IMG/VR virus record: IMGVR_UViG_3300001450_000038
Coordinates: 1-58,762 of that record
DNA length: 58,762 nucleotides
Reading direction: 5' to 3' (one strand)
Origin: a virus
Position 1 is the stretch's first letter. Every line of letters starts with the position of its first letter. Position numbers and translations under genes: made by a program. The notes beneath the pieces were generated by a model, which saw only the letters and a program-made list of their open reading frames with translations, did not search any database and was not told where the DNA came from. Shown one piece after another: positions 19,305 to 58,009 of the stretch.

Positions 19305-19310
19305 TTACAC
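19305..19310 (-). promoter_or_regulatory. GTGTAA element before nrdB
   Basis: On the minus strand GTGTAAAATTACAAG precedes the ATG. GTGTAA ends nine bases before the start, and TAAAAT, a -10-like hexamer, ends six bases before it. No -35 at normal spacing. One of nine such hexamers noted in the window. Confidence 0.45.
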
Positions 19311-19385
19311 AGAATATCGCCTCGTCAGAACTGAGTCAACTCTATTTTTAATAAAAAGAGCAAAGCTCATTTAAATTAATATAAA

Positions 19386-19446
19386 CGTATGGGTAACGTA
19401 TGGAATATTATTTAAATACGTATCCCATACGAGCGTTTCCAATACG
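19386..19446. promoter_or_regulatory. Cluster of CGTAT-n3-ATACG operator-like sites
   Basis: Three 13-bp sites lie in the divergent gap between nrdB and the sigma-like gene: CGTATGGGTAACG at 19386-19398, the perfect dyad CGTATCCCATACG at 19419-19431, and CGTTTCCAATACG at 19434-19446. A weaker CGTATGGAA starts at 19397. Repeated dyads between divergent operons suggest a dimeric repressor or activator. They do not match the NrdR box. The rest of the 250-bp gap (19296-19546) is AT-rich and holds no ORF. Confidence 0.55.
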
Positions 19447-19509
19447 ATATATTTCTTATATTAAGATAAGATTCTAGCCTGTCAAGAACAAAATTTTATG
19501 AGATTTTAC

Positions 19510-19537
19510 TTGATTTTTTTGACTTTTTACTTATAGT
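19510..19537 (+). promoter_or_regulatory. Sigma70-like promoter of the first plus-strand island
   Basis: TTGATT at 19510-19515, 16-base spacer, TATAGT at 19532-19537. The GTG start follows nine bases later, so the leader would be only a few bases long. The same -35 and spacer are seen at 41469-41496. Confidence 0.5.
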
Positions 19538-19546
19538 AAGAAAAAA

Positions 19547-20143
19547 GTGATCAATAATCTCTCAGATTCCGATTTAACTGTATTAATTAGAGAAGATAAT
19601 GACGAAATAGCCTTGAACGAGCTAATCTCTAGACATTCAGGTATTTACGTTGACATGCTTAAAAAGTTTGGTTCAAATTGCCTGACCAGAAATCAAGTCT
19701 GCGATATAATGGGCGAAAAAGATTATGTAATCTACAAAGCTGCTCTAGAATATGATGAAAATAGGGCTAAGTTTTCCACTCATTTGGCAAATAAGACGAA
19801 ATATATGTGCCTTACTCAGAAGACTAAAAACAAGAATAATAGGGTCACTTCAAATTTTGATGAAATACAATTTTGTCAAAAAGACAAGAGTCACACTCCA
19901 GACCAGTCTTGTAATATGAATGATTCGTTTTCTAGGATCATTAATCTGATTGAAAAACATCAAGATAGCCGCTTAAAAATAATCTTTCACGAGAGGTATT
20001 TTTGTGGTAAGAGGGGCAAATTAAAACCTTGGAAGGAAGTTGCTGATATATTAAATCTCTCAGCACAAGGTTGCATAAATATTCATGACAAAGCAGTGTT
20101 AGAATTAAATCAAAAAATAGATAATGAAAAGATTAAATTTTGA
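19547..20143 (+). CDS. RNA polymerase sigma-70-family-like factor
   Basis: 198 residues, start GTG (no other start nearby; promoter immediately upstream). A region 2-like helix set runs about 18-95 (DEIALNELISRHSGIY, YKAALEYDENRAKFSTHL), and a region 4-like helix-turn-helix lies near 150-190 (WKEVADILNLSAQGCINIHD). Size and layout fit phage-encoded or ECF-like sigma factors that redirect host RNA polymerase. First gene of the plus-strand island, next to an operator cluster. A second such protein is encoded at 56270-56947. Confidence 0.6.
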   Translation: MINNLSDSDLTVLIREDNDEIALNELISRHSGIYVDMLKKFGSNCLTRNQVCDIMGEKDYVIYKAALEYDENRAKFSTHLANKTKYMCLTQKTKNKNNRVTSNFDEIQFCQKDKSHTPDQSCNMNDSFSRIINLIEKHQDSRLKIIFHERYFCGKRGKLKPWKEVADILNLSAQGCINIHDKAVLELNQKIDNEKIKF

Positions 20144-21241: not shown

Positions 21242-21529
21242 ATGAATTACTCATATAATACAAATAAAACTGAAATTAAAGACAACGGAGACGATTATAT
21301 CGCCCAATTTGAACTAGCAGGTTTCTCAAAAAAAGACCTTGATGTTACAGCTACAAATTCAAAATTAATCATTGATGCGAAGAATGAAGATAGACAAAGT
21401 CATTTTAAATTAAATTTATATGGAATTGTTTCTATTGAAAATATAGTATCAAATATGAAGAACGGTCTTCTTACAGTAACTCTTCCCAAAAAGAGTGTAA
21501 TAGGACGAAGAAAAATAGAAGTTATATAA
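21242..21529 (+). CDS. Small heat-shock protein, Hsp20/IbpA type
   Basis: 95 residues from ATG 21242; an in-frame TTG at 21224 exists, but the protein aligns from MNYSYNTNKTE. The alpha-crystallin core reads DDYIAQFELAGFSKKDLDV, LIIDAKNED, and the conserved GLLTVTLPKK near the end. It would hold unfolded proteins as an ATP-independent chaperone. Phage Hsp20 genes are common in marine T4-like viruses. TATAGT lies at 21232-21237, four bases before the start. Confidence 0.85.
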   Translation: MNYSYNTNKTEIKDNGDDYIAQFELAGFSKKDLDVTATNSKLIIDAKNEDRQSHFKLNLYGIVSIENIVSNMKNGLLTVTLPKKSVIGRRKIEVI

Positions 21530-21909
21530 TGTCAATATACCTATATAAACACCCCACGAAAGACGAGTATGAAGAGGTTATTCAGGGAATGAATGACCCC
21601 CATACTTTCTCAAAAGATGGAGAGGAATGGCGAAGAGTATTCACAGTTCCACATGCCTCGATATCAAGTAACGATGACCCTTTTAACTCTAACGCCTTCG
21701 TCGAGAAGACAGGTAAAATGAAGGGTACTGTGGGAGATATGATGAGCTATTCTGAAGAGTTGAGCCAGAAACGAGCAGATAAACATGGAGGACAAGACCC
21801 CGTTAAGACTAAACACTTCAAAGACTACGAAAGGGACATCGGCAAAAAGCACATTGCAGATAAGCAAACTAGTTTTGAGAATAAATCAATAAAGATTGAT
21901 ATGGATTAA
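21529..21909 (+). CDS. FmdB-like protein lacking the zinc cysteines
   Basis: 126 residues. The first 45 follow the FmdB layout (MSIYLYKHPTKDEYEEVIQG, then DPHTF and WRRVFTVP), but the CxxC pairs that bind zinc in that family are absent. The remainder is charged and ends KSIKIDMD. Start ATG overlaps the Hsp20 stop (TAATG). The gene ends convergently with the fibre-like gene (four-base overlap). Role unknown. Confidence 0.45.
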   Translation: MSIYLYKHPTKDEYEEVIQGMNDPHTFSKDGEEWRRVFTVPHASISSNDDPFNSNAFVEKTGKMKGTVGDMMSYSEELSQKRADKHGGQDPVKTKHFKDYERDIGKKHIADKQTSFENKSIKIDMD

Positions 21910-22742
21910 ATGGAGGTTAAACCGATTCCAGCCCAACTCCCTCCAATAAATACACATAAAGTAGATCCTGAAATCGCTAATGCTCCAGTTGCTTCCACTG
22001 AAGGAGAACCATCAGAAGAACCCATACTATTACCTAACCATTTAGGGAGGGCAAATCCCGTCTGATATCTTACAATGCCCGTTACAGTGTGAGGACCGTT
22101 AAACATTTCTTCATTGACAATGGTGCTGCCGCTTAATACCGCATCGCTCAAAACATCTAATTGACCACTAAATATGCCAGTTCCGTCTACACTTAAGCTC
22201 TGTTGGAAATAAGTGTCTCCACCTTGGAAGAAATGACCAGAACTAAATTTCGCATATAAGGCGTCTTGCTGACTTACGGTAATTGAGTTTGTAGTTAGGT
22301 TATCTTTTAAGACGACACTACCCGTTGCAGTTTCAGTAAACGTTATACCATGCCCAGCTAAGCAAACATTTTCTTGACTTCCCGTTCTGAATTCTACAGA
22401 ATCTGCGCGAAAAACAGCATTATTAATCCCGCTAATGCTACTGTCATTGCATGAAATTGCAAAATTATTATATGCGTTTAGTCCATCTCCTATTTCAGTA
22501 TCACTACCTAGAAACAAAAAGTTTCCACTATTTGTATTATAGATGTTATCGATTTTCTGAGCAAAACTTGCAATTGATTTACCGTTATTAGTCAAATCTC
22601 CTGTAAAAGAAAAATCACCTGTCAAGTTCCTAGAAACATTGATTTGAACTCCCGTATTTGTTTGAGTTATATTTAGATCTCCAGAATCACTAAAGAAAGT
22701 GTGCAATTGGATCTGTTCAGGTTGAATTTTATTAAAAGCCAT
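21906..22742 (-). CDS. Fibre-like virion protein
   Basis: 278 residues, rich in Gly, Ser, Thr and Asn, with beta-type repeating segments (NLTGDFSFTGDLTNNGKSI, SLSVDGTGIFSGQLDV) and a C-terminal region ending SGSTLCVFIGGSWAGIGL. This composition and the GIFSGQL-type repeats are typical of phage tail fibre or appendage proteins. It stands alone on the minus strand between two plus-strand islands, away from the other tail genes, and has a GTGTAA element 25 bases upstream. Receptor-binding is a guess. Confidence 0.55.
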   Translation of the reverse strand: MAFNKIQPEQIQLHTFFSDSGDLNITQTNTGVQINVSRNLTGDFSFTGDLTNNGKSIASFAQKIDNIYNTNSGNFLFLGSDTEIGDGLNAYNNFAISCNDSSISGINNAVFRADSVEFRTGSQENVCLAGHGITFTETATGSVVLKDNLTTNSITVSQQDALYAKFSSGHFFQGGDTYFQQSLSVDGTGIFSGQLDVLSDAVLSGSTIVNEEMFNGPHTVTGIVRYQTGFALPKWLGNSMGSSDGSPSVEATGALAISGSTLCVFIGGSWAGIGLTSI

Positions 22743-22767: not shown

Positions 22768-22773
22768 TTACAC
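22768..22773 (-). promoter_or_regulatory. GTGTAA element before the fibre-like gene
   Basis: Hexamer GTGTAA on the minus strand, 25 bases before the ATG at 22742. It shares the 38-bp divergent gap with the SSB gene, whose own -10-like TATAAA is at 22762-22767. Confidence 0.35.
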
Positions 22774-25070: not shown

Positions 25071-26197
25071 GCCATCTAGCAGAGGAATACGCCAAATCAT
25101 GCGGAGTAAAGATTGGTAAACCAGTATTGAATCCTCATTATTTCCCAGTTTTATACGATAAGTATATTACAATTCATAATGACAAGAAAGTTCAGGCGAA
25201 AGAATATGACATGTGGGTTGATGTTGTTGAACTTCTTAAAACGCATTTGGGAGATATTAAAATCATCCAAGTCGGAGCTAAAGGAGAAAAAACAATTGAC
25301 GGCGTAGATGCTCATATGCCCACAGAAACTCTGAAGCAATCTGCATATATTATAAAAAACTCTCTGGGACATGTCGGGATTGATAGCGTCCCTGTTCACA
25401 TAGCTTCTGCATTAGATAAGCCCGTTGTAGGTATCTATGCTCACACATATGCAGACACATGTTCTCCGCTTTGGAATGATAAAACAAAAGCGATAACAAT
25501 TGAATCAGATAGGGGTGGAAAAAAACCCTCATTTTCTTTAGAGGAAAATCCAAAAACAATTAATTTCATAAAACCAGAGGAGATCGCTCAAGCTGTTCTT
25601 GATGTTTTAGAGATCGATGAAAAAGTTGTTCATGAAACTATTTTCATTGGGGGTAATTATAAGTCAGATTTTTACGAGGTTGTACCGATAAAGCGCACAA
25701 ATATTGTGTCTGATCATATCGATGTAAGGATGGACTACGCTCATAACGAAGAAGTCCTGTATCATATTCTACAAAGAAATAAAGTTGAAGTTACTACTTC
25801 AAAACCCATTAGCGAGAGCCTGATTAAATCCAAGAGAATAAAAAAGTTAATATATAAAGCGGATTTGTTTGATCTTGATTTCTGTAAACTTGTAAAAGAT
25901 CAGGGTATACCCACTATCACAATATGCACCTCTTCAGATAACCTCACTGAAGAAAGATCAAAAAACTTTGATCAGCTAATTAATTATCTAGATACTGAGG
26001 CTATTATTGAGAATAATAAAAAAAGGATTGATATCGACGATTTTAATACAATTAAAATTAAAAGTAATAAAAAAATTGTTTGTGGAGACGAGATTTATCC
26101 TAGCTATTTTGATTTAAATGAACGAAAAAATTTAGATCATTTTTATCTTGACTTAGAATTTTTTAGAGTTTACCGTGAGCCACATGAGCAAGAATAG
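25067..26197 (+). CDS. C-terminal half of a GT9 heptosyltransferase-like domain plus extra domain
   Basis: 376 residues. Residues 1-190 continue the GT9 fold exactly where the previous ORF stops: SHLAEEYAKSCGVKIGKP, then NSLGHVGIDSVPVHIASAL and KPVVGIYAHT, the nucleotide-sugar site of GT9 enzymes. The rest (about 195-376) is an unrecognised Rossmann-like domain (KKLIYKADLFDL, IPTITICTSSD). Start overlaps the preceding stop as ATGA; termination-reinitiation, a -1 frameshift or a sequencing indel would each explain the break. Alone it lacks the acceptor half. Confidence 0.68.
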   Translation: MSHLAEEYAKSCGVKIGKPVLNPHYFPVLYDKYITIHNDKKVQAKEYDMWVDVVELLKTHLGDIKIIQVGAKGEKTIDGVDAHMPTETLKQSAYIIKNSLGHVGIDSVPVHIASALDKPVVGIYAHTYADTCSPLWNDKTKAITIESDRGGKKPSFSLEENPKTINFIKPEEIAQAVLDVLEIDEKVVHETIFIGGNYKSDFYEVVPIKRTNIVSDHIDVRMDYAHNEEVLYHILQRNKVEVTTSKPISESLIKSKRIKKLIYKADLFDLDFCKLVKDQGIPTITICTSSDNLTEERSKNFDQLINYLDTEAIIENNKKRIDIDDFNTIKIKSNKKIVCGDEIYPSYFDLNERKNLDHFYLDLEFFRVYREPHEQE

Positions 26198-26957
26198 TGT
26201 TTACGGTCCAGATATTTACAAAAGAAACGAGCACGGCCTTTTAGAGAATGCTTCGTATTGTTTTAATGAAGACGGATCTGTTGATTGGAGATCCATGATC
26301 AAAGACGATTTCCTTTATCCTAATAAAGGTTGGTTTGAAGCAAGAAAGAAGCCTGTCCCAAGCTCTACTGATGGATTGAAAGATAATCAACTCCTAATCA
26401 TGCTTGGAGGCATTAAAGAACTAGCCAAGCTAAGAGGTTTTGAATCAGTGTCATTTGAAACAGAGAACATTTCCGATGGATATGTCAAAGCAACTTGTAG
26501 AATTATTTGGGGAAAGAATTACGAAAGCTCTGGAATCAACACAATTTACGAAGATGTCGCCAATGCCTCATTAGATAATACGGATGATTTTTGCGCTAAA
26601 TTCCTAGAGACTATTGCTTGTAATAGGGCTTTTGTTCGTTGTGTCCGTAATTTCTTAAATATCCATATCGTAGGGGCAGACGAGATTGATAAGTCAAAAG
26701 GAGCGAATAATTCTAATAGTGTGGAATATGATGCCTCTAGTGACTCAGTAATGCTCCCATTAACCCCCTCAGGATCGCTCCAGAAGGCTTTGAACGAGAA
26801 TCATGGAGTAAAGTCCTTTGAGGAGTTTAAAACGTTTCTAAGGTCATTGTGGAAGAAGGAGTCTTACCGAAATGAAGAGGCCGCGAATTGGATGTCTTAT
26901 GAGGACATCCCAGCCAAAGAATGCAGGAAATTGATGGCAATCTGCAAAAAATCATAG
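26184..26957 (+). CDS. Unassigned protein, possibly a Rad52-like annealing protein
   Basis: About 257 residues from ATG 26184; GTG 26175 is an alternative. ADEIDKSKGANNSN divides a folded N-terminal part from a helical C-terminal part. The stretch KATCRIIWGKNYE, then ETIACNRAFVRCVRNFLNI resembles single-strand annealing (Rad52/Sak-like) phage proteins, which share an NRAxxRxxR helix. The SSB lies a few genes upstream, which would suit recombination. The match is weak, and I would not assert the function. Ends convergently with the tail hub gene, six-base overlap. Confidence 0.4.
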   Translation: MSKNSVYGPDIYKRNEHGLLENASYCFNEDGSVDWRSMIKDDFLYPNKGWFEARKKPVPSSTDGLKDNQLLIMLGGIKELAKLRGFESVSFETENISDGYVKATCRIIWGKNYESSGINTIYEDVANASLDNTDDFCAKFLETIACNRAFVRCVRNFLNIHIVGADEIDKSKGANNSNSVEYDASSDSVMLPLTPSGSLQKALNENHGVKSFEEFKTFLRSLWKKESYRNEEAANWMSYEDIPAKECRKLMAICKKS

Positions 26958-29447
26958 ACCTAGAGTGTTCCTCTGTCTCGCATTAAAGGAGCTTGGAAGC
27001 ATTGATTTCGGAGTCAGCGCCTCCATTCCTTCTGTAATCTGGAAACCTTGATCTGGTGGAATTAGCTTTATCGTAGACTCACTCACTGTAGTTGTAATAC
27101 CATCTGGACCGATAGAGATAGAAACAGAATTCATTGTTGGAGAAAACTCTGGGATCTGAAGGCCATAGAAAGTCCTACTAGAAGATTCAGGCTTATCAAA
27201 GCGATTACGGTATTTACCTCTAATTTTTTGGAGAACCTTCATTTCTGCAGTTGAACCAGAAGCAGATGATAGACTGAGCTTGTTTAACATATTATGAGGT
27301 GGGCTTTCAATTGAATTATATTTCAAATCATAACGATCAAAAAGTTCAGCGATCTTCTGATCGTCTTCTGAAGCTTCTGCCAATTCATCGTCTTCAGCTT
27401 CTTCTCCATCTTCGCTTGTTTTATTGACCCGTGTCTTACTTCGTTTATAGGTTAATCGTAAAGTCGTTTTTTTCTTTATGGCTCTATAATAATTGTCAAT
27501 TGATTGATTCATCAAATGTTTCATTCCCTCAACAAGAGTTTTATCGATAAGGTTGTTGGGGAAAGTTGGTCCACCTACAAGTAATCCTTCTGTGTGATTA
27601 GGATCTTCATAAATTTCATAATATTCCTGCAAAGGAGAAAAATCTACCTTCGCATCTTTTTGAACTATTTTCTGATTGTTCGTGGATTTAACTCTTTCTA
27701 ACTTAGGTATAGACCTAATAGCTATGAAATGATGCTCATGAGTGCTTTTTGCTGGGACTCCTCCAATACGATTTTCTGCTTGAGTCAAATTAGCTAGACC
27801 TTTGACTGTCACATCTTGGTCTATGCCCAAAGAGTCAAAAAAGTCTGTTATGGGGGATAATTCCGAAATTTCGTTTATTTTATCAGAGGCTTTTAAAGGA
27901 CCAACAACATTGACATTGTTACTATTTGAGAACTCCATTCTCTCTACCTTATATTCTGAATAGCCATTTGAAATGTAAATACCTCCAGCTATTTGATAAA
28001 ATAATTTCAGAAAGCTATATAATTGACTTCCATGGGGTCTAGGCATTTTTTTAAGATCGGTTCCTTCAAAGTGTTGGAATCTCACATACTTAAATTTGTT
28101 TGTGATCCTATTCATATTAAGAAGAGATGTTTTCTTCGCTTCTTTTTTCGCTTCTGCATCGTTAATAGCGAATACTGCTCTGTATTTTTCATCAGCATCT
28201 CCCCCATGCTCTTCTAGGAAAGGAATTAGTGGTAGAGCAGTTCCTTCTGGATTTAAAACAGGTTCATAATCATATAGTTTACTTAAATCAAACGGATGAT
28301 CATTTAATTTTTCTTTACCAAAAACTTCATTTTTCAAAGCTTTATTTTTAGCTATTGCAGTTGCGAAATAGGTAAATTTATCAAAAACATCAACACTTTC
28401 CTCCTGATCAAACAAACTGAAAAAAGCAGCCAAAACAGTTCTAGATGCTTTTTTATGTATCCCTAGAGTCTCAAATCGACATCTTTTAAAGAAAATCGGT
28501 CTAGGTCTATCGTCATCTTTAGGATTGTTTGAATCTTTTTCTGTAGATCCATTATAAACGTTAACTATTTTATTAGAAACGATACTCTCAGTGAAAGATG
28601 CACTTACAATATCGGAATTGGTTGTATCTGTATAATTATCAATTGGTATTTGACTAGCTATTTCACTGTTAATTAAGTTAATACTTCCATTTCTAGGGTC
28701 TACATACCAATAATAACCCAAATAACTTGCTATACTACTAACAACACTACTTAGAGTGCCACTGGTCTCAAATAAAGTATTATTGCTTGAGGGTAATCCA
28801 TTTATAGATATGCCAACACTATTTAAAGCTGATCTAAAATCAGAAAGGGTATAACCAAATTTCAAATCGTATTGAGATAAATCTGGAGCAGCCTTATAAG
28901 TGCCATTTACAAACTCAGTGTTTAAACTAAGATCTTCTTTTAATTTCTTATTGTGATAGACAAGGCTAATCTTAACTCCTTGAAAGTTGGCTGCAGACTC
29001 TACATTATAAACTTTTCCCATGTAGATAACAGACCCTTCAACTCTTGGTCCCTGAGATCTAAAAGATGTTAGGGGAGTATTTGCAACCTCTGTAAAATAT
29101 GGAACTGGACCTTCAAAATCACTACCTCCATTTGGACCAGAATTGATACCCCGAACTAAAACCACATAAGATTCTAAAAGTAAGGACGTTCTATCCACAT
29201 ACCTTCTGGTGATCGCTTTTTTTGTAGGGCCAGCCGAAGTAGTTTTCTGAGTGCAGATAAAATTACCAAGCATCTCAGTAATTTTAGGATTAGAAAAGTT
29301 ATTGATCTCACCTAGCCCACCGACGACAATGCCCAAATCTTCCCCAGTCTCTACAGATTTGGGGTTCAAGAAAGAAGTTACAGACGCTGTGTGACCTCCT
29401 CCAGCGTTTGTAAAATTCAAATCTACTTTTGTTATGCCTTCTCTCAT
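26952..29447 (-). CDS. Tail hub / baseplate-type structural protein
   Basis: 831 residues. The middle segment, LNSVGISINGLPSSNNTL, then SVVSSIASYLGYYWYVDPRNGSI, is typical of phage tail hub proteins of the gp27/Tal kind, where a small domain with D-x-x-x-G-x-I packs on the tail tip. An acidic stretch near 660-690 (EDGEEAEDDELAEASEDD) is a likely flexible linker. Last gene of the virion operon, four-base overlap with the next. It probably sits at the tail tip; no lysozyme or peptidase motif was seen. Confidence 0.6.
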   Translation of the reverse strand: MREGITKVDLNFTNAGGGHTASVTSFLNPKSVETGEDLGIVVGGLGEINNFSNPKITEMLGNFICTQKTTSAGPTKKAITRRYVDRTSLLLESYVVLVRGINSGPNGGSDFEGPVPYFTEVANTPLTSFRSQGPRVEGSVIYMGKVYNVESAANFQGVKISLVYHNKKLKEDLSLNTEFVNGTYKAAPDLSQYDLKFGYTLSDFRSALNSVGISINGLPSSNNTLFETSGTLSSVVSSIASYLGYYWYVDPRNGSINLINSEIASQIPIDNYTDTTNSDIVSASFTESIVSNKIVNVYNGSTEKDSNNPKDDDRPRPIFFKRCRFETLGIHKKASRTVLAAFFSLFDQEESVDVFDKFTYFATAIAKNKALKNEVFGKEKLNDHPFDLSKLYDYEPVLNPEGTALPLIPFLEEHGGDADEKYRAVFAINDAEAKKEAKKTSLLNMNRITNKFKYVRFQHFEGTDLKKMPRPHGSQLYSFLKLFYQIAGGIYISNGYSEYKVERMEFSNSNNVNVVGPLKASDKINEISELSPITDFFDSLGIDQDVTVKGLANLTQAENRIGGVPAKSTHEHHFIAIRSIPKLERVKSTNNQKIVQKDAKVDFSPLQEYYEIYEDPNHTEGLLVGGPTFPNNLIDKTLVEGMKHLMNQSIDNYYRAIKKKTTLRLTYKRSKTRVNKTSEDGEEAEDDELAEASEDDQKIAELFDRYDLKYNSIESPPHNMLNKLSLSSASGSTAEMKVLQKIRGKYRNRFDKPESSSRTFYGLQIPEFSPTMNSVSISIGPDGITTTVSESTIKLIPPDQGFQITEGMEALTPKSMLPSSFNARQRNTLGL

Positions 29448-30304
29448 AAAATAATATCTTCTACTAATGTTTTTACAGTGAACTCATTCCCCTCGATAGA
29501 TCCACTAATCAAAGCATTAACTCCTGACTTTATTATACTTACACCTGTATAAAGCTCTAGATAGTTAGATTGAAGCTCTGAGACTCCATTAATATAATAA
29601 TTTGTTCTTTTCTCTATAAATCCAGAACCAAAAACATCAGGATTTACCCCTGTTACAGAGTCTGACCTAAATCTCTTCTTGTAAGCAGAGTATTTAAATT
29701 TATTTTTATTATTTGTTGTGACTACACCTCCGACATTTTGGGCTTCTGATCCAGCTCCTCCAAAAAGAGGTATGAAATTAGACTCTGTCCCAACAGAAAC
29801 TCCAACGCCAACACCAGAATAAACCTTTTGACCATTTAAAAAATAATCACAATCTGAGAAACTAACCGACCCCACAGAATTTACGATGGAAGCTTTTAAA
29901 GTTTCCCCTAAATCACCTGTCGCAGCAATTATCCCAGAGCCAGAAACTAGATTATAAGAAATATCATCCGAAGCATTTGCTGGAGTGGTCTGATCAAAAA
30001 ATATCCTACTCTTATCAATCGGATCACTCTCCTCATCTTTAATAAAGAAATCTCCAGTATTTATTTGGTAAGATATTTCATTAATCGCTAACCCAGTTAT
30101 CGGAATCTCCTGAGTTAAAGTTTGCCCATTTAAAGATAATTGAAATCTCCGATCCTCAAGAGATACTCTTCGGTCATAATAAACGATGTCTTGAGACCCC
30201 GCTACATCTTTATTTAATAAAAGAAAATTATCTGTATGCAAATCCAAGGAAGAGCATCCAGAAATCGTAGCGTCACCAGTAAATATAACAGAGTCGTAAA
30301 TCAT
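29444..30304 (-). CDS. Tail-tip structural protein, unknown
   Basis: 286 residues, Ser, Gly and Asn-rich and beta-type (YYDRRVSLEDRRFQLSLNGQ, YSGVGVGVSVGTESNF). Segments such as DFFIKDEESDP followed by INGVSELQSNYLELYTG resemble small tail-tip or fibre-attachment proteins. No named family. Translation is coupled to both neighbours by four-base overlaps, so it is a virion component by context. Confidence 0.5.
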   Translation of the reverse strand: MIYDSVIFTGDATISGCSSLDLHTDNFLLLNKDVAGSQDIVYYDRRVSLEDRRFQLSLNGQTLTQEIPITGLAINEISYQINTGDFFIKDEESDPIDKSRIFFDQTTPANASDDISYNLVSGSGIIAATGDLGETLKASIVNSVGSVSFSDCDYFLNGQKVYSGVGVGVSVGTESNFIPLFGGAGSEAQNVGGVVTTNNKNKFKYSAYKKRFRSDSVTGVNPDVFGSGFIEKRTNYYINGVSELQSNYLELYTGVSIIKSGVNALISGSIEGNEFTVKTLVEDIIL

Positions 30305-41461: not shown

Positions 41462-41468
41462 GTATATT

Positions 41469-41496
41469 ATTATATAAATATACAGAAAAAAATCAA
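41469..41496 (-). promoter_or_regulatory. Sigma70-like promoter before the chaperone genes
   Basis: Minus strand: TTGATT (41496-41491), 16-base spacer, TATAAT (41474-41469), then seven bases to ATG. The mRNA would start at or next to the initiation codon. Confidence 0.5.
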
Positions 41497-41894
41497 CTTA
41501 TACAACCTGTGGCCTCTAAAGAAAGTACCGAGTCCCCATGTTTAGTGAACATAACTAGATTTGACCTTCCATTCAAAACGCTATCTCCCGTCACATCTAA
41601 TCCATTAGCTATTAAAATATCATCTTTATAATAAGAAAACGTGGAGTTTAGAAAATCATGATGTATTTCAAGGTCAAAGGGGACTCCGCTTCTATAACCC
41701 CCAAAGAAATTACCACTTTGGTCAAATATATAACCTTCCGCTCCAGAAAACGTCATTAAGTTAGCTGTTTTAAAACCTCCGTCTATACCTGTCTCCATAA
41801 TGGAAAACTCAAAACCACTGATAGGAGAATCAATCGTTACATCTACATTGTAGATACAATTTTTATAATTTGGTAGGTTTCCGCTAGTAATCAT
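41493..41894 (-). CDS. Small tail structural protein, unknown
   Basis: 133 residues, beta-type (DVTIDSPISGFEFSIMETG, YKDDILIANGLDVTGDS). The segment GFEFSIMETG with SGAEGYIFDQSG has the look of a carbohydrate- or cohesin-like beta-sandwich. Four-base overlap with the second tail-tube-like gene. Probably a tail decoration or tip component; no family recognised. Confidence 0.5.
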   Translation of the reverse strand: MITSGNLPNYKNCIYNVDVTIDSPISGFEFSIMETGIDGGFKTANLMTFSGAEGYIFDQSGNFFGGYRSGVPFDLEIHHDFLNSTFSYYKDDILIANGLDVTGDSVLNGRSNLVMFTKHGDSVLSLEATGCIS

Positions 41895-42744: not shown

Positions 42745-42750
42745 TTACAC
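42745..42750 (-). promoter_or_regulatory. GTGTAA element before the second tube-like gene
   Basis: Minus strand GTGTAAACTACTAT then ATG; eight bases between hexamer and start. It begins right after the U-tract of the terminator at 42751-42781, so transcription is stopped and restarted here. Confidence 0.5.
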
Positions 42751-42781
42751 AAAAAAGCCCCGCATTCCTGCGAGGCTTTTT
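42751..42781 (-). terminator. Intrinsic terminator after the major tail tube gene
   Basis: Minus strand AAAAAGCCTCGCA, loop GGAA, TGCGGGGCTTTTTT. An 8-bp GC-rich stem with one mismatch and a run of U. The flanking A-run would let it work on both strands. Confidence 0.85.
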
Positions 42782-42799: not shown

Positions 42800-44080
42800 T
42801 TAAGACCCAGCTCCGTCTTCCGAGGAATAAGGTGATATGGTATTGTTCTTTTTATACATGAATCCTTCTCCAAATTTTTGAGAAGCAGTAGTGCTATATA
42901 CATCAGGTTGATTTGCATTAATTCCAGAGTAAAAGAATCCTTGATCAGTTTGGTTTACTCCTCCAACCTGAGTGGAGAATGTCAATTCAATTGATTCATT
43001 ATCATCTAAGCCTTGAGAGAATCCCTGTGAATCCATCACAGCCTTCTGCATAGTGTATTGATGTTTAGTTTTCCCGTCACTTCCCTTTACGGTAAGAGAG
43101 ATATTTGTCGTCTCATTTCCAGCGTTTCCAGTCAAGATCTTATCTATTTGACCTGATTGAATATTTTTGAGCAGCGCACTCACAGACATGGTGACGTTGA
43201 TTGGGAAATCCAAGGGCTTAGCAACAGCCTTGGCTGATCCTAGGGCTTCAATAGGAGTCCTAGAAAGAGGGACTTCAATAGAAGCACTCTGAACATGCAT
43301 ATCTCCGAGATCAGTTCCTCCAAAAGAAAATTCTTCTGTGGAAAAAGCTAGAGTTACATCTTCTGGGCGTAGAACAAGAACATCCATATTACCTGTACTA
43401 GGAGTACCAAGCATAAATTGACCCGTATCTGCGCGGCCACCAGCTCTATTCAAAGATGGGTTATAAAGGCCAGAACTTGTTGTATCAAATGTAATGTTTT
43501 CTGCAGTTCCATCAATATCTACCCTTGGGATCTCTCCAACAGCAAAGTTAACAGAATAACTCTCAAAGTTACAGTTCCCGAGAGAAACAACATCATGACC
43601 AGCTCTTTCCGCTGTAGAGAATCTCCCAGTTGGGTTATCAATAAATGAACTAGTAGATGCAAAAGCATCTTCGCCCTCTTTAACAGTCAAAACAAAAAGG
43701 TTCTTCTCTCTTTTGGCTGGATCTTCAGCAATGATCCCAGAGATAAATTGATCTTGAAGAACGCCAGCGTTATTCTTACCGAGACCATTAAATCCTAAAT
43801 TACCCTCGTTTTCTCCATTCCCAAGATAATACCCAAGGGAAAAAGAGGGGTTAAGATCACCTAAAGTGATCGTTCCAATTCGTGCTAGTTGACCAAATTC
43901 TCTAATGTCCTGTCGCCCTCCAGCGATATCAACGTCAAAAGATAAAGTGTCTACTCGATGTAGCTGTTGAGGCATAACGCCAGTGAGTGATGCTTGAGGC
44001 GCTGTAAGGCCACCAAGTGTACCAGTAGGGGATACATAAACAGCTTTGCTTTGTGAAATTATTCTAGTTCTAGAAGCCAT
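42800..44080 (-). CDS. Major tail tube protein
   Basis: 426 residues. Beta-rich tube-type protein: DTLSFDVDIAGGRQDI, NCNFESYSVNFAVGEIPRVD, HVQSASIEVPLSRTPIEAL, DDNESIELTFSTQVGG. The sequence around GEIPRVDIDGTA is typical of siphovirus tube subunits that stack as hexamers. Longer than most, so an added surface domain is likely. It has its own leader with two GTGTAA copies and a terminator right after it, as expected for a highly expressed protein. Confidence 0.68.
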   Translation of the reverse strand: MASRTRIISQSKAVYVSPTGTLGGLTAPQASLTGVMPQQLHRVDTLSFDVDIAGGRQDIREFGQLARIGTITLGDLNPSFSLGYYLGNGENEGNLGFNGLGKNNAGVLQDQFISGIIAEDPAKREKNLFVLTVKEGEDAFASTSSFIDNPTGRFSTAERAGHDVVSLGNCNFESYSVNFAVGEIPRVDIDGTAENITFDTTSSGLYNPSLNRAGGRADTGQFMLGTPSTGNMDVLVLRPEDVTLAFSTEEFSFGGTDLGDMHVQSASIEVPLSRTPIEALGSAKAVAKPLDFPINVTMSVSALLKNIQSGQIDKILTGNAGNETTNISLTVKGSDGKTKHQYTMQKAVMDSQGFSQGLDDNESIELTFSTQVGGVNQTDQGFFYSGINANQPDVYSTTASQKFGEGFMYKKNNTISPYSSEDGAGS

Positions 44081-44107: not shown

Positions 44108-44123
44108 TTACACCTTCTTACAC
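44108..44123 (-). promoter_or_regulatory. Two GTGTAA elements before the tail tube gene
   Basis: GTGTAA occurs twice on the minus strand (44118-44123 and 44108-44113), 27 and 37 bases before the ATG. The nearer copy is part of TGTAAAGGTTTACA, a perfect dyad. This is the longest leader among these sites. Confidence 0.4.
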
Positions 44124-48902: not shown

Positions 48903-50402
48903 TTAGTTTGCAACTTCTACAGAGAAGTTCTTCTTAAGCCTCTCGACAAAAGAAATTTGTTCGCTTGCTTCAGCGTTGTTATTAGGGATAGAAGCTTCAG
49001 CCTCTTCTCCTTCAACTTCAAGCTCTTCTTCCGACTCTTCTTCGTTAGCAGCCTCTTCTTCAGGTTCGTCACCTTCTTCACGGCTAGCAATAGCTTCGTC
49101 GATACGAGCTTTAATTTCTGCTTCTTTTGACTCAATATTCTTTTTGAGTTTGTGAGCAAAAATCACTTCAAGCTTTTCCTTATAGGAATTAAAATTTTCT
49201 TCGGAAGAACCTAGGTCTTTTACTTCAGCAGTAACCAAAGCGAGTTCTTTCTCGTTAAGGTCATAATCGCTATCAATAAAATTCATACGGTCATTGAAAA
49301 GGTCAACAGCAGCTTTTGCTTCAACCTCACCCCTAAGAGCGTCTAGTTCTTCTTTTGTTTGCTTAAAAGAGTCTTGCAACTCATTAAGCTCAGCTTCGGC
49401 TTTAGCCTTAGCTTCCTGCTCAACTTTCATCTTGGAAGTCCAAGACTCGTTGTGTTCTACGAGAGTATCGCGGATACTTTCGCTAACAGTTTTAGCCTCA
49501 GAGCCTTCCTTCACAGCAGAAGCAACACTCTTGGTCAACTGACAGATTAATTGATCAAATTGTTCGTTATCCATATTAAAAATACTTTTTAATTTGTTTG
49601 AGTTTACATTAATATTACTATTTCGGGAAATTTTTTCTACTTTTTTATTATCTAAATCATTTTTTGTTGTATAAACTCCCTTTACTGCGGCGGCAGGATT
49701 TTTAGTTAATGCTGCCCCTAAAGGATAAGTTTGGCCGACAATTAATCTATTCACAGGATTGCCGTTTTTATCGACTCCCTTCCCTCCTAACCCTCTAATA
49801 TATTGTTTTAAATCTTCTTTTTCAGCACCTTCTGCGATGATAGATTCGTTTAGATATTTAGAGCCAACAGCCACTTCAAACTGCTTGAATGCTAGTTCCC
49901 AGCTGGTAGAGATACTTTGATAAGACGGCTCCTCTTCTTCAGAAGCTTCTGTGATAGCCTCGGCTAATTCAGGATAAACAGATTTATAAATCAATCCAGC
50001 AGCATTAATATAAAAAGGCTCTGTTTTATCAGCATAAGATTCAATATCATTATCTTTAAAATCAAACTCTTTATCAGAGAATGAAGCATTAATCATATGA
50101 CCAACTATTTTATCTTTTTTGTGCTCAATATTGATTGGCTTATTAATAAAACGTTTTACAGCTGCGATAGCTGTTTCCGCATCAATGCCGTCTCCATTTT
50201 TATTAAACTCGTTCACCTTGGCCAAATTAAAGACCACAGGCAAAACATCGATATTCTCTTCTGGATTAAAGTCTTCTGGCAACAAAGATTCTGCGGCTTC
50301 TTGAATAGAACCTTTAGAAAGCCCAAATAATTCAAACTCTTCGTTTTTTATCTCCCTTACTTTTCCTTCAAATAAGCAAATGTTAAAATCATCCAACAAC
50401 AT
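48903..50402 (-). CDS. Prohead protease fused to scaffold
   Basis: 499 residues. The N-terminal half is a prohead serine protease: NKPINIEHKKDKIVGHM with H94, and PSYQSISTSWEL with the Ser near 163-167, the U35/U9 pattern. From about 277 the chain turns into a charged coiled coil (QEAKAKAEAELNELQDS) and a very acidic tail (EEGDEPEEEAANEEESE), as expected for a scaffold that is cut out during maturation. An in-frame ATG at 49574 (residue 277, MDNEQF) exactly at the junction could make the scaffold alone, as lambda C/Nu3 does. Confidence 0.8.
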   Translation of the reverse strand: MLLDDFNICLFEGKVREIKNEEFELFGLSKGSIQEAAESLLPEDFNPEENIDVLPVVFNLAKVNEFNKNGDGIDAETAIAAVKRFINKPINIEHKKDKIVGHMINASFSDKEFDFKDNDIESYADKTEPFYINAAGLIYKSVYPELAEAITEASEEEEPSYQSISTSWELAFKQFEVAVGSKYLNESIIAEGAEKEDLKQYIRGLGGKGVDKNGNPVNRLIVGQTYPLGAALTKNPAAAVKGVYTTKNDLDNKKVEKISRNSNINVNSNKLKSIFNMDNEQFDQLICQLTKSVASAVKEGSEAKTVSESIRDTLVEHNESWTSKMKVEQEAKAKAEAELNELQDSFKQTKEELDALRGEVEAKAAVDLFNDRMNFIDSDYDLNEKELALVTAEVKDLGSSEENFNSYKEKLEVIFAHKLKKNIESKEAEIKARIDEAIASREEGDEPEEEAANEEESEEELEVEGEEAEASIPNNNAEASEQISFVERLKKNFSVEVAN

Positions 50403-50410: not shown

Positions 50411-50416
50411 TTACAC
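50411..50416 (-). promoter_or_regulatory. GTGTAA element before the protease-scaffold gene
   Basis: Minus strand GTGTAAGACATAAT then ATG; eight bases between hexamer and start. It overlaps the stop codon of the portal gene. Confidence 0.45.
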
Positions 50417-52366
50417 GGAAATTTGAGTTGAATGATATAAAATTGCAGAAGCCAAGTCATCCAATTGATGTTGACATCCTAATTCTAGAACTTTTTGGTT
50501 GACTGCGAGAGAAGACAGCTTGTCTAAATCTTGAACTATTTCTGATAAAGTAGGCTCCCAATCAATACTGTCTTTAGCGATAACAATAGATTCACAAACT
50601 TGAGTCACCATCTCCTTCTTTTGCTTAGACATTCTTTTGAGTCCAAACTTTGAAGCGAATTCTCTAAAAGCTAAAATTTCAAGTTCATTGATTCTTTTAG
50701 TGGCTTCCACGATGTTTTTCTTTGAGTAAGAGGAATTAGAGACCCCAATCGGTCTTCCCCCAGACGGTGCAACAGCTTGAGGTTTATTAGGTTCTGGAGA
50801 ACCACCCTCTTCTTCATTATACAAATTAATTGTATTTACAAGAGGCATATAATGCCCTTTTTCACGCTCTTCCTTAAATTTATCTTGAGCTACTTGCATA
50901 TCAGAAGCCTTAGGGAAAACTCCAGTGTGGACAACCTTCATGCCTTGTTCTGGGGTAAGGACTCCCAACTCCATCAATCTTGTGGCCAACTTTGACAGGT
51001 TATTGTCATCCATTGTATCTGTCCTAACAAATTTAGCTTCTGGCCAAGAACGAAGGCCAGCAGCCTTGCATATTCTTCTGATCTCAGGATTAATAAAGTC
51101 ATTTAGGAAGGCTCTACGAGACTCTTCTAATCTCTGGAAGAAAACCTTCATTTTGATTTGAGTATCCGAATATTTGGATTCTCCTATAAGAATGTTCTGC
51201 AAACCCTGTTCAATATCTCTGTTTAAGACTTCGTATTTTTCTGGGCCTACGACTTTCCGAATATCTGGAATGATAAAATCTGCTTTTGTTGTATAGTCAG
51301 AAACAAGAACACGACCAACACTCTGATTCTTAAATATTTGCTGCATGGCAGCTAGGTTTCGGTGATTGACTCCGCCCTTATCTGGCTCATTGCCCATTGT
51401 CACTAATAAAACTACATTCTCAATAGAACGACTAATTGCCTGATCAATATTCTTCAATTCTATTTTTCTATTAATATCATCAAGAACAGAATAACCTAAG
51501 GGGATCGCCAAAGGCTCGTAATCTTGCTTTTTAGCGAAAACAACGTGCAATAATTGTGGGTCAAGTTTAATTTGAACTCTAGTCATTGCATAAGAACTTT
51601 TTCCTGATTTAAGGGCTTGTTGGACATCTTCGGGCAAAGATTTAAACATTTCTAACTCATGTTCTGTCTCTGGCTTTTGCAGCCGAGAAATTTCAAATGG
51701 AGATAATACCTTAAAATATTCATAGCCACTAAATGAAACAGAGCCTTTTGTTGCGATATCTGTGGGGTTGATCAAAAGATATCTAATAGGGATTTCTTTC
51801 CTAGAACTAGCCCCATAAGCTTCTAGCATTTTTTGTGAATTTTTAAGAGGTATTTTCCCATCTACTCTATAAAAGAAGACGTTACCTGATCGGTAATACT
51901 CTCTGAAGTATTGTTGTTTTAAATCATGCATCTTGATTCTTTTGAACCAAGCGTCGATAAATTTTCTAGATTTTTCTGTACCCCCCTCAAGATATACTTC
52001 TGAGTCAGCAAATTCAGACAAAAGATCAATCGTGCCTTTAAAAGAAGAAATATTAAAATAAGCTTTTTGACAAAGTTCTACTGCTTCTTTAGCGTCTGCA
52101 GAGTCTTTCTCATAGTTAAACGGTAAGATTCCGTTTTTGATATTTTCAAATTTATTACCTAAGCCTGAAGTGGCAACAGCATTGGTACGAGCTTTCGTTC
52201 TAGCTGTAGGAGAGTCTAAACGAGAAGACTCTGAGCTGAAAACAGGTTCTCCAATTAGTTCTGGCTGAAAACCCTCGTCTTGAGGTTGAATTAGGTTTTC
52301 AAGTGGAATTTTTTTCTTATTGAACTTTTCCCAATATTCAGAGCGTTTAGTATATCTACGAGCCAT
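50411..52366 (-). CDS. Portal protein
   Basis: 651 residues. Portal-type core: YFNISSFKGTIDLLSEFADS, then YFREYYRSGNVFFYRVDG and LLINPTDIATKGSVSF, a long helix with KIELKNIDQAISRSIENVVL, and VFFQRLEESRRAFLNDFINP. It forms the dodecameric ring through which DNA enters and leaves. The C-terminal 130 residues (after KASDMQVAQDKFKEE) form an added domain not needed for the ring. Between terminase and protease, as in most tailed phages. Confidence 0.85.
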   Translation of the reverse strand: MARRYTKRSEYWEKFNKKKIPLENLIQPQDEGFQPELIGEPVFSSESSRLDSPTARTKARTNAVATSGLGNKFENIKNGILPFNYEKDSADAKEAVELCQKAYFNISSFKGTIDLLSEFADSEVYLEGGTEKSRKFIDAWFKRIKMHDLKQQYFREYYRSGNVFFYRVDGKIPLKNSQKMLEAYGASSRKEIPIRYLLINPTDIATKGSVSFSGYEYFKVLSPFEISRLQKPETEHELEMFKSLPEDVQQALKSGKSSYAMTRVQIKLDPQLLHVVFAKKQDYEPLAIPLGYSVLDDINRKIELKNIDQAISRSIENVVLLVTMGNEPDKGGVNHRNLAAMQQIFKNQSVGRVLVSDYTTKADFIIPDIRKVVGPEKYEVLNRDIEQGLQNILIGESKYSDTQIKMKVFFQRLEESRRAFLNDFINPEIRRICKAAGLRSWPEAKFVRTDTMDDNNLSKLATRLMELGVLTPEQGMKVVHTGVFPKASDMQVAQDKFKEEREKGHYMPLVNTINLYNEEEGGSPEPNKPQAVAPSGGRPIGVSNSSYSKKNIVEATKRINELEILAFREFASKFGLKRMSKQKKEMVTQVCESIVIAKDSIDWEPTLSEIVQDLDKLSSLAVNQKVLELGCQHQLDDLASAILYHSTQISV

Positions 52367-52374: not shown

Positions 52375-52380
52375 TTACAC
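52375..52380 (-). promoter_or_regulatory. GTGTAA element before the portal gene
   Basis: Minus strand GTGTAAACTTTGAT then ATG; eight bases between hexamer and start, in the 43-bp gap after the terminase gene. No -35-like hexamer at the usual distance. Confidence 0.5.
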
Positions 52381-52409
52381 TAAAGTTATAAAAGTGACTT
52401 TAGAACTTT

Positions 52410-55215: not shown

Positions 55216-56273
55216 AAAATTTCCTTCTTAGATATTCCTAAAATGCGAGCCTTATATTCGTCCATGGACTCTAATCGATCTGCCTCTTCTTCAATTAGCT
55301 TATTTTGCATCTCCGCCATTAAAATCATGCGTTCTCGCTCTTCTTTCTCTTGAAACGCTTCCACTAAAGCCGCAATACTTCCATTTTGCTCCCCCCTTGC
55401 CTTTAAACGCGCCTGACGGCTCCCGTTAAGGTCTTTGGTCAAAGATTCAATTCTCTTCTCACATTGATTCAACTCCTCGCTGGTGGCCTTTATAAGCTCA
55501 GTAAGACGCATTGTTAAATCTCGCTCATTATCAGTGTCGTTGAGCATTGTATTCAATTTATCAATTCTTTGTTGAATATGTTTCTGTCTAACGTAGTTTG
55601 TGCAGACCGTAATATACAAATTTAACTCATCATTAGTTAGATCTGGCTTATCCCAAACTGTTCTTACAAATTCACTCTCAAATAAATCTCGATCTGCTAT
55701 TGTCGAGTATTGATTAATAAAATGTACGAACCTAGGGCTTTTGAGATAAAAAAGCAACTTTTCGCACATTCTTTTCTGCTTGGTCTGGATGGTTATTTCA
55801 TCAAAATTTTGTCCAGCCCACTCATTTACTTTTTTTATTGATTTAGATAGGGATTTGGGAGATAGCCATTTATCACTAGTCAACATTTCATTATCATCAA
55901 CAATTTCTGGCCTATATCGGCGTAAATATTCCATTACTGTCCTATGTTGTTGACTTAGGGGTTGAATTCCTCTATCCTTAAATGTCAAACGGGTTACTTC
56001 AAGGGCGTTCATGCCTCTTTCAACATTGTTACCCATCAAAAACTGTTTCTGCTCACCTGTTAAGTCAACTTCTTCCGCTTTCGGCGCAAGAGAGGTTGTA
56101 AAATCCAAGCTTTTGGTAATTAAAAACTTCCTCACACATCTCCCCTCCTTTGAACGACCGTCCAAAGAGTCATTATTAAATACAATTTGAGTAATATGCT
56201 TTAAATCGGGGTTCTTTGCAAACTCAACCTCGATTTTTTGTTTTTGTTCCTCTGTTAACTCAATATCATTCAT
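55212..56273 (-). CDS. Small terminase candidate with duplicated N-terminal module
   Basis: 353 residues. Two similar modules open the protein: LTEEQKQKIEVEFAKNPDL and RCVRKFL (6-50), then LTGEQKQFLMGNNVERGMNA and TVMEYLRRY (70-116), both helix-turn-helix-like. A helical middle and a long coiled coil follow (LTELIKATSEELNQCEKRIE). DNA-binding plus oligomerising coil beside the terminase and nuclease genes fits a small terminase that recognises packaging sites, but no family was recognised. Confidence 0.5.
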   Translation of the reverse strand: MNDIELTEEQKQKIEVEFAKNPDLKHITQIVFNNDSLDGRSKEGRCVRKFLITKSLDFTTSLAPKAEEVDLTGEQKQFLMGNNVERGMNALEVTRLTFKDRGIQPLSQQHRTVMEYLRRYRPEIVDDNEMLTSDKWLSPKSLSKSIKKVNEWAGQNFDEITIQTKQKRMCEKLLFYLKSPRFVHFINQYSTIADRDLFESEFVRTVWDKPDLTNDELNLYITVCTNYVRQKHIQQRIDKLNTMLNDTDNERDLTMRLTELIKATSEELNQCEKRIESLTKDLNGSRQARLKARGEQNGSIAALVEAFQEKEERERMILMAEMQNKLIEEEADRLESMDEYKARILGISKKEIL

Positions 56274-56947
56274 AAAATATCGTTATCCTTCATAATTCTA
56301 ACCGCAATTTGATAAAATTTCTTTTTTAAATTTGCTATTTGTTTATATCTGGGTTTTTTCCTCTTCACCGAATCAGCTTTAAACCCAAATTTCTCTGCTA
56401 CTTCATTTTCATCTCTATTCTCAACATAAAGAAGATAATAAATCTTTTTATGCTTCTCATTCAATTCTCCCATGACTAATTTGTGAAGTCGCTTAGATGA
56501 ATCTTTATAATCAAGGTGATCTTTTAATGTAGTCGTCCCTGTAAATAACCCCTCCTCTAAAGCCAATGGAAGTTTAATATTATAGGCTTTTTCTTTTTTA
56601 TTCTTCCACTTAGCAAAATCAGGGCAACTAATATCTTGCCCCTTACTCTTTGTTAAAGCACAACTATCTGACCCCATATTATGAGGACATCTTAAACAAG
56701 GCTTGGCAAAACTTGAATAATTATTCCTAATCAAATTCTTAATCTGATTGGAGATAATCATGGAAGCCCAAGGCTTAAAGGGTCGCTCTTGATCCCAAAG
56801 ATGCCACTTCTTAAAAATATGTAATCGGATTATTTGACATACATCATCGTAATCCATCCACGCTATGGCACTCAATTGCCACTTCGGTCGATATTTTTTT
56901 AAAAGGTCTTCTAAATCAGGGCTTTGACTTTCAAAATCATTCTCCAT
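56270..56947 (-). CDS. Sigma-like transcription factor with Cys4 insertion
   Basis: 225 residues. Region 2-like: YDDVCQIIRLHIFKKWHLWD then FKPWASMIISNQIKNLIRNN at 33-76. Region 4-like: LNEKHKKIYYLLYVENRDEN, then VAEKFGFKADSVKRKKPR. Between them C84, C87, C96 and C108 form a probable zinc site. Size and absence of other sigma regions recall T4 gp55, the late sigma that reads a single -10 element. It may be the factor for the GTGTAA sites. Four-base overlap with the upstream gene in the minus operon. Confidence 0.6.
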   Translation of the reverse strand: MENDFESQSPDLEDLLKKYRPKWQLSAIAWMDYDDVCQIIRLHIFKKWHLWDQERPFKPWASMIISNQIKNLIRNNYSSFAKPCLRCPHNMGSDSCALTKSKGQDISCPDFAKWKNKKEKAYNIKLPLALEEGLFTGTTTLKDHLDYKDSSKRLHKLVMGELNEKHKKIYYLLYVENRDENEVAEKFGFKADSVKRKKPRYKQIANLKKKFYQIAVRIMKDNDIL

Positions 56948-57302
56948 CTATATCCCTCATACGTGAGGACGAACAATCTCTAATAGTCTTATCCAAAAGC
57001 TCTTGCCCGTCAGGATCTCTCGATTCAGGACGGGAAAAATTTTCCTGAGGGCCATTCGCCTCCGAAGAAGTGACAGAACCCCAAATATCCTCAATTTTTG
57101 TTTTTTGTTTGTCATTCTCGACAACAATATCTCTTTTTAACTTGCTTAAATTAATATCAAGATCAGAAACCTCTTCTACTTCTTCCCTTTTGGCTGCAGA
57201 AGAAATAGAACCCAGACTATGACCGCAACTAGAGCAGAATTTAGGCTTAGCGATCTCATATAAGATCTTAAAACCACAGGATACACAGAAAATCTTATTC
57301 AT
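56937..57302 (-). CDS. Zinc-ribbon protein
   Basis: 121 residues. N-terminal ribbon with CVSC at 6-9 and CSSC near 23-26. The rest is polar and probably disordered (SSAAKREEVEEVSDLDINL, ending RMRDIDGE). It overlaps the sigma-like gene by 11 bases, so a role with transcription is possible but not shown. Confidence 0.55.
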   Translation of the reverse strand: MNKIFCVSCGFKILYEIAKPKFCSSCGHSLGSISSAAKREEVEEVSDLDINLSKLKRDIVVENDKQKTKIEDIWGSVTSSEANGPQENFSRPESRDPDGQELLDKTIRDCSSSRMRDIDGE

Positions 57303-57310
57303 GGCTAATT

Positions 57311-57991
57311 TTATTGTTTTATTTCACTTTTTTCAATTTTATCTACTAAATAGCTTATGATTTTATCTCTCATAACGTCTTCCTTACCAAATTTTAAATG
57401 ATGAATTCCGAAAGACTGGCTTTCTTCATCATCAAATATATTACAAAACTTATTAAAACCAGAAGACCTAATATCACTTTGCATTGTATCTCCACATAAG
57501 AACAATGTAGTGTTAGTTGAAATGCGGGTTATGATAGTTGTAAGTTCTCTTGTTGTCATATTTTGTGCCTCATCCACTATAACCATCTTGTTTTTCCATG
57601 TAGCGCCTCTCAAAAAGTTAATCGGGGCCGCTTCCAACACTTTCCTGTCTTGTATTTGTTTTTTTTCTGGACCATTTAATAATTCATCCAATTTATCTTC
57701 TAACGGACCCAAATACGGATTGAACTTCTCATCCATGCTTCCTTTCAGAAAACCCATCCCCTTATCCGCACTCTCAGCCAAACTCCTCAAATATAATATA
57801 TTAAGCAACTTGTCCTCATTGTATTTATATAACGCCGTATATACAGATAAAAATGTCTTCGCAGTCCCCGCTGGCCCACTAATAAATACAACCCTTGTTT
57901 CAGGGTCACGCATTATCTTGTGGAATTTACTTTGTTTCTCTGTCAATTCTATATGACCCAACAATAATGAGTTTTTATTTCCAAACGTCAT
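57311..57991 (-). CDS. phoH: PhoH-like ATPase
   Basis: 226 residues, short PhoH core. Walker A GPAGTAKT at 39-46, Walker B MVIVDEAQN, and the PhoH-typical GFLKGSMDEKFNPYLGPLED and LFLCGDTMQSD. PhoH-like ATPases of the helicase-like fold are common in marine phages; their role is not settled (RNA handling or phosphate response). First gene of the minus-strand block, with a GTGTAA element upstream. Confidence 0.9.
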   Translation of the reverse strand: MTFGNKNSLLLGHIELTEKQSKFHKIMRDPETRVVFISGPAGTAKTFLSVYTALYKYNEDKLLNILYLRSLAESADKGMGFLKGSMDEKFNPYLGPLEDKLDELLNGPEKKQIQDRKVLEAAPINFLRGATWKNKMVIVDEAQNMTTRELTTIITRISTNTTLFLCGDTMQSDIRSSGFNKFCNIFDDEESQSFGIHHLKFGKEDVMRDKIISYLVDKIEKSEIKQ

Positions 57992-58003
57992 TTGTGTTAT
58001 TTG

Positions 58004-58009
58004 TTACAC
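58004..58009 (-). promoter_or_regulatory. GTGTAA element before phoH
   Basis: Minus strand GTGTAACAAATAACACAA then ATG; 12 bases between hexamer and start. GTGT and ACAC arms flank an 8-base core here too. The rest of 57992-58141 is AT-rich apart from two C/G runs (58048-58060 and 58100-58110) and holds no ORF. Confidence 0.4.

Follow-up and report, generated by a model that had tools for sequence, protein, structure and literature searches.

In a large family of uncultured phages, marine as judged from the family and its relatives, the hexamer GTGTAA almost certainly serves as a one-part promoter, which the phages' own sigma factor probably reads. Our analysis started from a 58.8-kb viral record (IMG/VR IMGVR_UViG_3300001450_000038), the whole of which is called the window here and supplies all positions given below; the complete genome is probably larger, and the records of relatives reach 80 to 160 kb. 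The explanation as a whole, in which GTGTAA is a late -10-like element that is read by the phage sigma factor without a -35 and directs leaderless starts, appears likely to us.

GTGTAA is no more frequent in the window than expected by chance (20 copies on both strands versus 20.74). An earlier note on this DNA, which had proposed the hexamer as a candidate late promoter, suggested counting it upstream of genes against shuffled controls. Within 50 nucleotides (nt) upstream, 9 of the 55 window genes carry a copy, a clear enrichment over dinucleotide shuffles of the same regions (n = 2,000; mean 0.41, maximum 4). At 6 to 13 nt before ATG, GTGTAA is the most enriched of all 4,096 hexamers in the window (6 versus 0.07 expected). 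All of the copies listed in the earlier note exist. One of them (29539-29544), attributed to a fibre-like gene, stands some 92 nt ahead of that gene, within the coding region of gene 29444-30304, and is therefore probably a chance occurrence; we treated intragenic copies as chance because the window total equals expectation. Chance is probably also the source of the copy 28 nt before the plus-strand gene 21529-21909, which falls within the preceding open reading frame (ORF). The other upstream copies, together with a terminator that adjoins one of them, are as follows.

58004-58009, minus strand: GTGTAA, 12 nt before the ATG of phoH (57311-57991); kept in 21 of 21 relatives, at 11 to 12 nt.
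52375-52380, minus strand: GTGTAA, 8 nt before the ATG of the portal gene (50411-52366); kept in 38 of 39 relatives, at exactly 8 nt in 35.
50411-50416, minus strand: GTGTAA, 8 nt before the ATG of gene 48903-50402; present in 28 of 38 relatives.
44118-44123, minus strand: GTGTAA, 37 nt before the ATG of gene 42800-44080, first of a tandem pair.
44108-44113, minus strand: GTGTAA, 27 nt before the same ATG, second of the tandem pair.
42745-42750, minus strand: GTGTAA, 8 nt before the ATG of gene 41891-42736; present in 5 of 5 relatives.
42751-42776, minus strand: intrinsic terminator GCCTCGCAGGAATGCGGGGC-TTTTTT, directly abutting GTGTAA.
39790-39795, minus strand: GTGTAA, 10 nt before the ATG of the tape measure gene (34860-39779, assigned by PHROG); dyad site GTGTAAATTACAC.
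22768-22773, minus strand: GTGTAA, 25 nt before the ATG of gene 21906-22742; a weaker case, with the motif also found in one relative of the gene.
19305-19310, minus strand: GTGTAA, 9 nt before the ATG of nrdB (18324-19295, assigned by Pfam); motif at the nrdB orthologues of six relatives.

The tape measure and phoH assignments are firm, and the portal gene was assigned from a weak match to the portal of Bacillus phage Stahl. For the names "protease-scaffold" and "tail tube", which the earlier note had used, we obtained no family match.

The same signal recurs among relatives. We gathered approximately 150 related viral contigs through TerL and sigma searches, so that nearly all loci compared were reached through the sigma gene or terL, and called ORFs in them mechanically (the longest ORFs with an ATG start and a minimum length of 60 amino acids). 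At 6 to 13 nt before ATG, GTGTAA is the top hexamer in 8 of 10 long relatives and the second in another (G010). In most long relatives, GTGTAA with an ATG close by shows a strong strand bias, and the reversed control pattern has low counts, in agreement with the earlier observation that copies are oriented with the gene. When all hexamers were scanned at all distances in 1,075 distinct upstream regions, GTGTAA at 8 to 11 nt was found 65 times versus 2.4 expected (p = 4e-68). It is still the top signal (37 versus 0.77 expected) in loci whose sigma proteins are only 30 to 48% identical.

Conservation at individual genes follows the element and its distance from the ATG. Among orthologues of gene 48903-50402, nearly all those without GTGTAA have GTGTAT at the same place, and the 8-nt spacer varies in sequence and hardly in length; in the window, the TAA of this copy doubles as the portal stop codon. 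At least one copy, and mostly two in tandem, is kept by 17 of 21 orthologues of gene 42800-44080. Neighbouring in-operon genes of the relatives carry none or almost none.

The pooled distances between GTGTAA and ATG have a sharp floor at 8 nt (23 cases at 8 nt, 23 at 9 nt, 14 at 10 nt, and 5 at 11 nt), with none at 6 or 7 nt, one case in all below 8 nt, and a thin tail to approximately 40 nt and beyond. This is the shape expected if the element sets the transcription start 7 to 8 nt downstream and the start codon never precedes that start. A logo of 60 de-duplicated sites places information in the hexamer and in a T-rich stretch immediately upstream and shows no -35; the earlier note had described the sites as lacking a regular one.

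The unbiased scan also returned, unprompted, a second signal: TTGACA or CTTGAC at 27 to 31 nt together with TATAAT at 5 to 8 nt before ATG. This second class, TTGAC-N17-TATAAT ending 5 to 8 nt before ATG, stands before other genes and is by its sequence an ordinary sigma-70-type promoter, whose predicted start likewise coincides with the ATG or lies close to it. The -35 of this class is plain in a logo made by the method that yielded none for GTGTAA, and a scoring matrix places -35/-10 pairs in a cluster 5 to 9 nt from ATG. The second class has the -35 and TATAAT-like -10 of host sigma-70 promoters; GTGTAA sites do not. Two examples from the window are as follows.

41462-41496, minus strand: TTGATT-N-TATAAT, ending 8 nt before the ATG of gene 40649-41461; a sigma-70-type leaderless promoter by sequence, with orthologues in four relatives in the same class.
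10159-10193, minus strand: TTGACA with a weaker -10, TATGGT, before the ATG of gene 9715-10158; orthologues in six relatives fall in the same class.

The two classes are nearly disjoint, with 85 genes carrying only GTGTAA or GTGTAT, 47 only the sigma-70 type, and 2 both; gene clusters with more than one member belong, with few exceptions, entirely to a single class. The GTGTAA class includes the tape measure gene (8 genomes), gene 48903-50402 (8), the portal gene (7), phoH (7), and nrdB (6), as well as genes 41891-42736 and 41493-41894 and those for a holin-like and a tail-fibre-assembly-like protein. The sigma-70 class includes gene 9715-10158 (6 genomes), genes 26175-26957, 3633-4331, and 40649-41461, and an additional sigma gene in one relative (G020). 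From these gene sets, it seems likely that the GTGTAA class is expressed late or middle-late. A further set of promoters, CTTGC(A/G)-N-TATACT or TATAGT with the ATG a few nt after the -10, recurs in L209-L212, L216, L135, and L227 and is, on its sequence, a very clean leaderless early promoter family.

GTGTAA sites also mark the beginnings of transcription units. The intergenic gap before GTGTAA genes has a median of 43 nt versus 4 nt for other genes, and intrinsic terminators lie upstream of 18 of 84 GTGTAA genes versus 34 of 473 others (Fisher p = 3e-4); in several unrelated genes, including gene 41891-42736 (window 42745-42776), the T-run of the terminator touches GTGTAA. Shine-Dalgarno (SD)-like motifs occur in 1% of the class. 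The genes thus show the pattern of leaderless genes, a -10-like signal approximately 8 to 12 nt before the start codon and no SD, and both promoter classes predict leaderless or nearly leaderless mRNAs. The earlier proposal of a directional single-element late promoter is backed by positional enrichment, conservation at orthologues, the missing -35, abutting terminators, and the gene set.

The earlier note had counted two sigma-like proteins in the window. Only one window protein matches the sigma-70 region-2 model, and this protein is a sigma factor.

56270-56947, minus strand: phage sigma factor of 225 amino acids, with sigma-2 at residues ~1-78, a four-cysteine insert, and a predicted sigma-4-like helix-turn-helix at residues ~149-225.

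Its match to Pfam Sigma70_r2 (E = 4e-8) scores 33.4 bits against a cut-off of 24, and in an alignment of 31 relatives, region 2 is conserved, C84, C87, C96, and C108 are invariant, and the C-terminal region is basic. The Pfam region 4 model (r4_2) remained below its cut-off (E = 0.005). In the predicted structure (mean predicted local distance difference test score 78; predicted template modelling score 0.39, at which domain orientation is unreliable), residues 150 to 225 superpose on SigA region 4 with 2.0 Å over 64 residues, and the model matches sigma factors over both domains, with extracytoplasmic function (ECF) sigma factors among the best. The modelled protein is probably built as sigma-2 plus a sigma-4-like domain with a four-cysteine insert, ECF-like and not of the gp55 type; given the sub-threshold Pfam region 4 match, we are moderately sure that a sigma-4-like domain belongs to this chain. 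A profile search confirmed at least 586 sigma relatives. A sigma-70 region 2 protein was present in all 13 records searched and was the only one in 12; G020 (L193-L201, 162 kb) encodes three, one of them behind a sigma-70-type promoter.

Other searches around this protein were negative. A tblastn search with the sigma factor against named phages gave no match, and a sequence search of the PDB with its profile gave a chance match only. No single-subunit (T7-type) RNA polymerase was found, a weak result given that the positive control of that search was also undetected and that the records may be fragments. DnaN domain 3 was below cut-off in 13 of 13 records, which may be fragments; T4-type clamps fell outside this search, and a host clamp is possible. 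Adjoining the sigma gene, window 56937-57302 (minus strand) encodes a 121-amino-acid protein with weak zinc-ribbon matches (PHROG 2546), possibly a transcription co-factor.

Together, these results suggest the following model, in which we infer the start site, the reading of GTGTAA by the sigma factor, and the timing. GTGTAA, with its variant GTGTAT, would be the -10-like element by which the phage's late promoters are recognised. Host core RNA polymerase, equipped with the phage sigma factor, would recognise it through sigma domain 2, with no -35, and would start transcription approximately 7 to 8 nt downstream, at the start codon or some 1 to 5 nt from it. Messages would then begin at the start codon or a few bases off, with no room for a ribosome-binding leader, and the late operons (phoH-sigma-terL, portal, gene 48903-50402, the tail genes, the tape measure gene, and also nrdB) would be mostly leaderless or nearly so and lack an SD. 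For early genes, promoters of the host type (TTGAC-N17-TATAAT) would be used, likewise placed for leaderless messages. The GTGTAA before phoH opens the run phoH - 56937 - sigma - 55212 - 54262 - terL; since the sigma gene follows phoH within this run, late transcription is probably self-reinforcing.

Several points weigh against this model. One long relative (G019, 56 kb) shows no clear enrichment of GTGTAA at 6 to 13 nt before ATG. The copies at 27 and 37 nt before gene 42800-44080 mean that not every promoter is leaderless, and the start sites and leaderlessness are deduced from geometry. Two of the genes concerned, nrdB and phoH, do not belong to the classical late set. The sigma factor appears to have a sigma-4-like end, yet its proposed sites show no -35, and what ties it to those sites is an association.

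We weighed three other explanations of the hexamer. The earlier note had named an operator as the rival: a phage regulator would bind a GTGTAA/TTACAC dyad, of which GTGTAA is one half, as its operator or activator site, with a separate promoter nearby. The dyad is perfect at the tape measure gene in the window, where relatives keep GTGTAA(A/T)TTACAC or something close, so this part of the claim holds; elsewhere it does not, as TTACAC lies near GTGTAA in 3 of 72 sites of relatives, all of them at tape measure orthologues. The sites are strongly directional and have no further -10 or -35 around them, and neither the sharp 8-nt floor nor the abutting terminators would be expected of an operator, which we regard as very improbable. 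We give just as little credence to the idea that GTGTAA is a translation signal, guiding the ribosome's choice of start codon in an SD-poor phage. The hexamer does sit about where an SD would, in a class nearly devoid of SD-like motifs; against this, it is found mostly at the starts of transcription units, after gaps and terminators, and some conserved copies are 25 to 39 nt away. The canonical -35/-10 pair of the other class, which occupies the same frame relative to ATG, also suggests promoters there. The gaps, the terminators, and the scarcity of SD motifs argue against an operator and a translation signal alike.

Somewhat less improbable, though still unlikely in our view, is a promoter read by another factor, whether a host alternative sigma factor, the host sigma factor aided by a co-factor from the phage, or a phage polymerase that escaped recognition. 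The assignment of this sigma factor to the sites is indirect, and the motif is so constant across sigma proteins of as little as approximately 42% identity that a shared host factor could explain it. On the other side stand the presence of the phage sigma in every genome tested, the failure to find a single-subunit polymerase (subject to the undetected control noted above), and the dissimilarity of GTGTAA to the -35/-10 pair of the other class.

T4 late promoters, to which the earlier note had likened these sites, are recognised by gp55 acting together with gp33 and the gp45 clamp; gp55 supplies sigma-2 and gp33 is a separate sigma-4 mimic (PMC2988020, PMC7892883). The likeness holds for the one-element logic: in both systems, a -10-like element without a -35 precedes structural genes, and a phage sigma-2 protein that redirects host RNA polymerase in T4 has a counterpart that would do so here. 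It fails for the architecture of the factor, which here has its own predicted sigma-4-like domain and a four-cysteine insert, and for the element, GTGTAA here and the TATA-type box TATAAATA in T4. Placement differs as well. In a T4 control (45 kb, same pipeline), TAAATA, ATAAAT, and TATAAA stood approximately 25 to 30 nt before ATG, with an SD-like signal at 3 to 6 nt in between, whereas the sites described here lie 8 to 12 nt before ATG. GTGTAA at 8 to 11 nt was absent from four unrelated phages (T4, Pelagibacter phage HTVC008M, Cellulophaga phage phi38:1, and Bacillus phage Slash). In HTVC008M (L206), several ATGs are preceded at a distance of only a few nt by a T4-late-type TATAAATA box; a T4-type late system may therefore have reached a similar leaderless placement.

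Other known systems share single features with this one. The sigma factors of phages phiEco32 and 7-11, of approximately 215 to 225 amino acids, are reported to use TAATGTATA and TGATGT-type elements, short motifs before the phage-sigma-dependent genes, and leaderless placement is not among the features described (PMC4331800). The phiEco32 element has only a TGTA core in common with GTGTAA. The phiEco32 sigma has no pairwise sequence similarity to the 56270-56947 protein, although deep homology within the sigma-70 superfamily is possible. Bacterial leaderless genes also have a -10 box adjoining the start codon, approximately 12 nt before it, and no SD (PMC3160421, PMC12340547); the difference is that here a phage lineage uses this geometry for a phage-specific late class and a host-type class. 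The ECF sigma factors SigH, SigL, and SigE are among the best structural matches over both domains, but the present sites show no -35 motif, and the present protein has a four-cysteine insert between the domains. In the open-access literature we found no relevant report of GTGTAA as a phage promoter.

Two further features lie near GTGTAA sites in the window.

52389-52401, minus strand: AAAGTCACTTTTA element upstream of the portal promoter, a putative accessory element.
58010-58150: non-coding interval that separates phoH from the divergent gene 58184-58594; approximately 17 relatives share strongly conserved blocks here.

The element at 52389-52401, in the form AAAGTNACTTT, occurs once or twice per genome and lies near the portal start in most long relatives; it could be an activator site, an operator, or a packaging signal. 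The blocks conserved in 58010-58150 are a G-rich run before TTTTTT, CTTGAC, GCGGGGGGGTGGTG, and CTATAAAC.

Bacteroidota promoters have a consensus that does not resemble TTGAC/TATAAT. A single terL match in bacterial genomes (L150, a terminase 82% identical, in a metagenome-assembled genome labelled Flavobacteriaceae) may be a binning accident, and because the early promoters are TTGAC/TATAAT-like, unlike that consensus, we did not rely on it to name a host. The phage neighbours of nrdA and DnaE indicated no clear host.

The novelty lies in the combination of a new element, an unusually built sigma factor, and two promoter classes that are both placed for leaderless transcripts throughout a lineage of uncultured phages. 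We offer more tentatively, as a possibility that we do not favour outright, that this lineage runs both its early and its late programmes on leaderless mRNAs and that their late sigma factor unites in one chain what T4 divides between gp55 and gp33: sigma-2 would read GTGTAA, and the four-cysteine insert and the sigma-4-like end would have polymerase or an activator, not a -35, as their binding partner. With the element as a sequence rule, late transcription units may be mapped by DNA sequence alone across a large group of marine phages that are uncultured and number at least 586 sigma relatives. Leaderless expression of phage structural genes becomes directly testable, and a sigma factor with one-element specificity and no -35 would be open to comparison with T4 gp55 and phiEco32 gp36.

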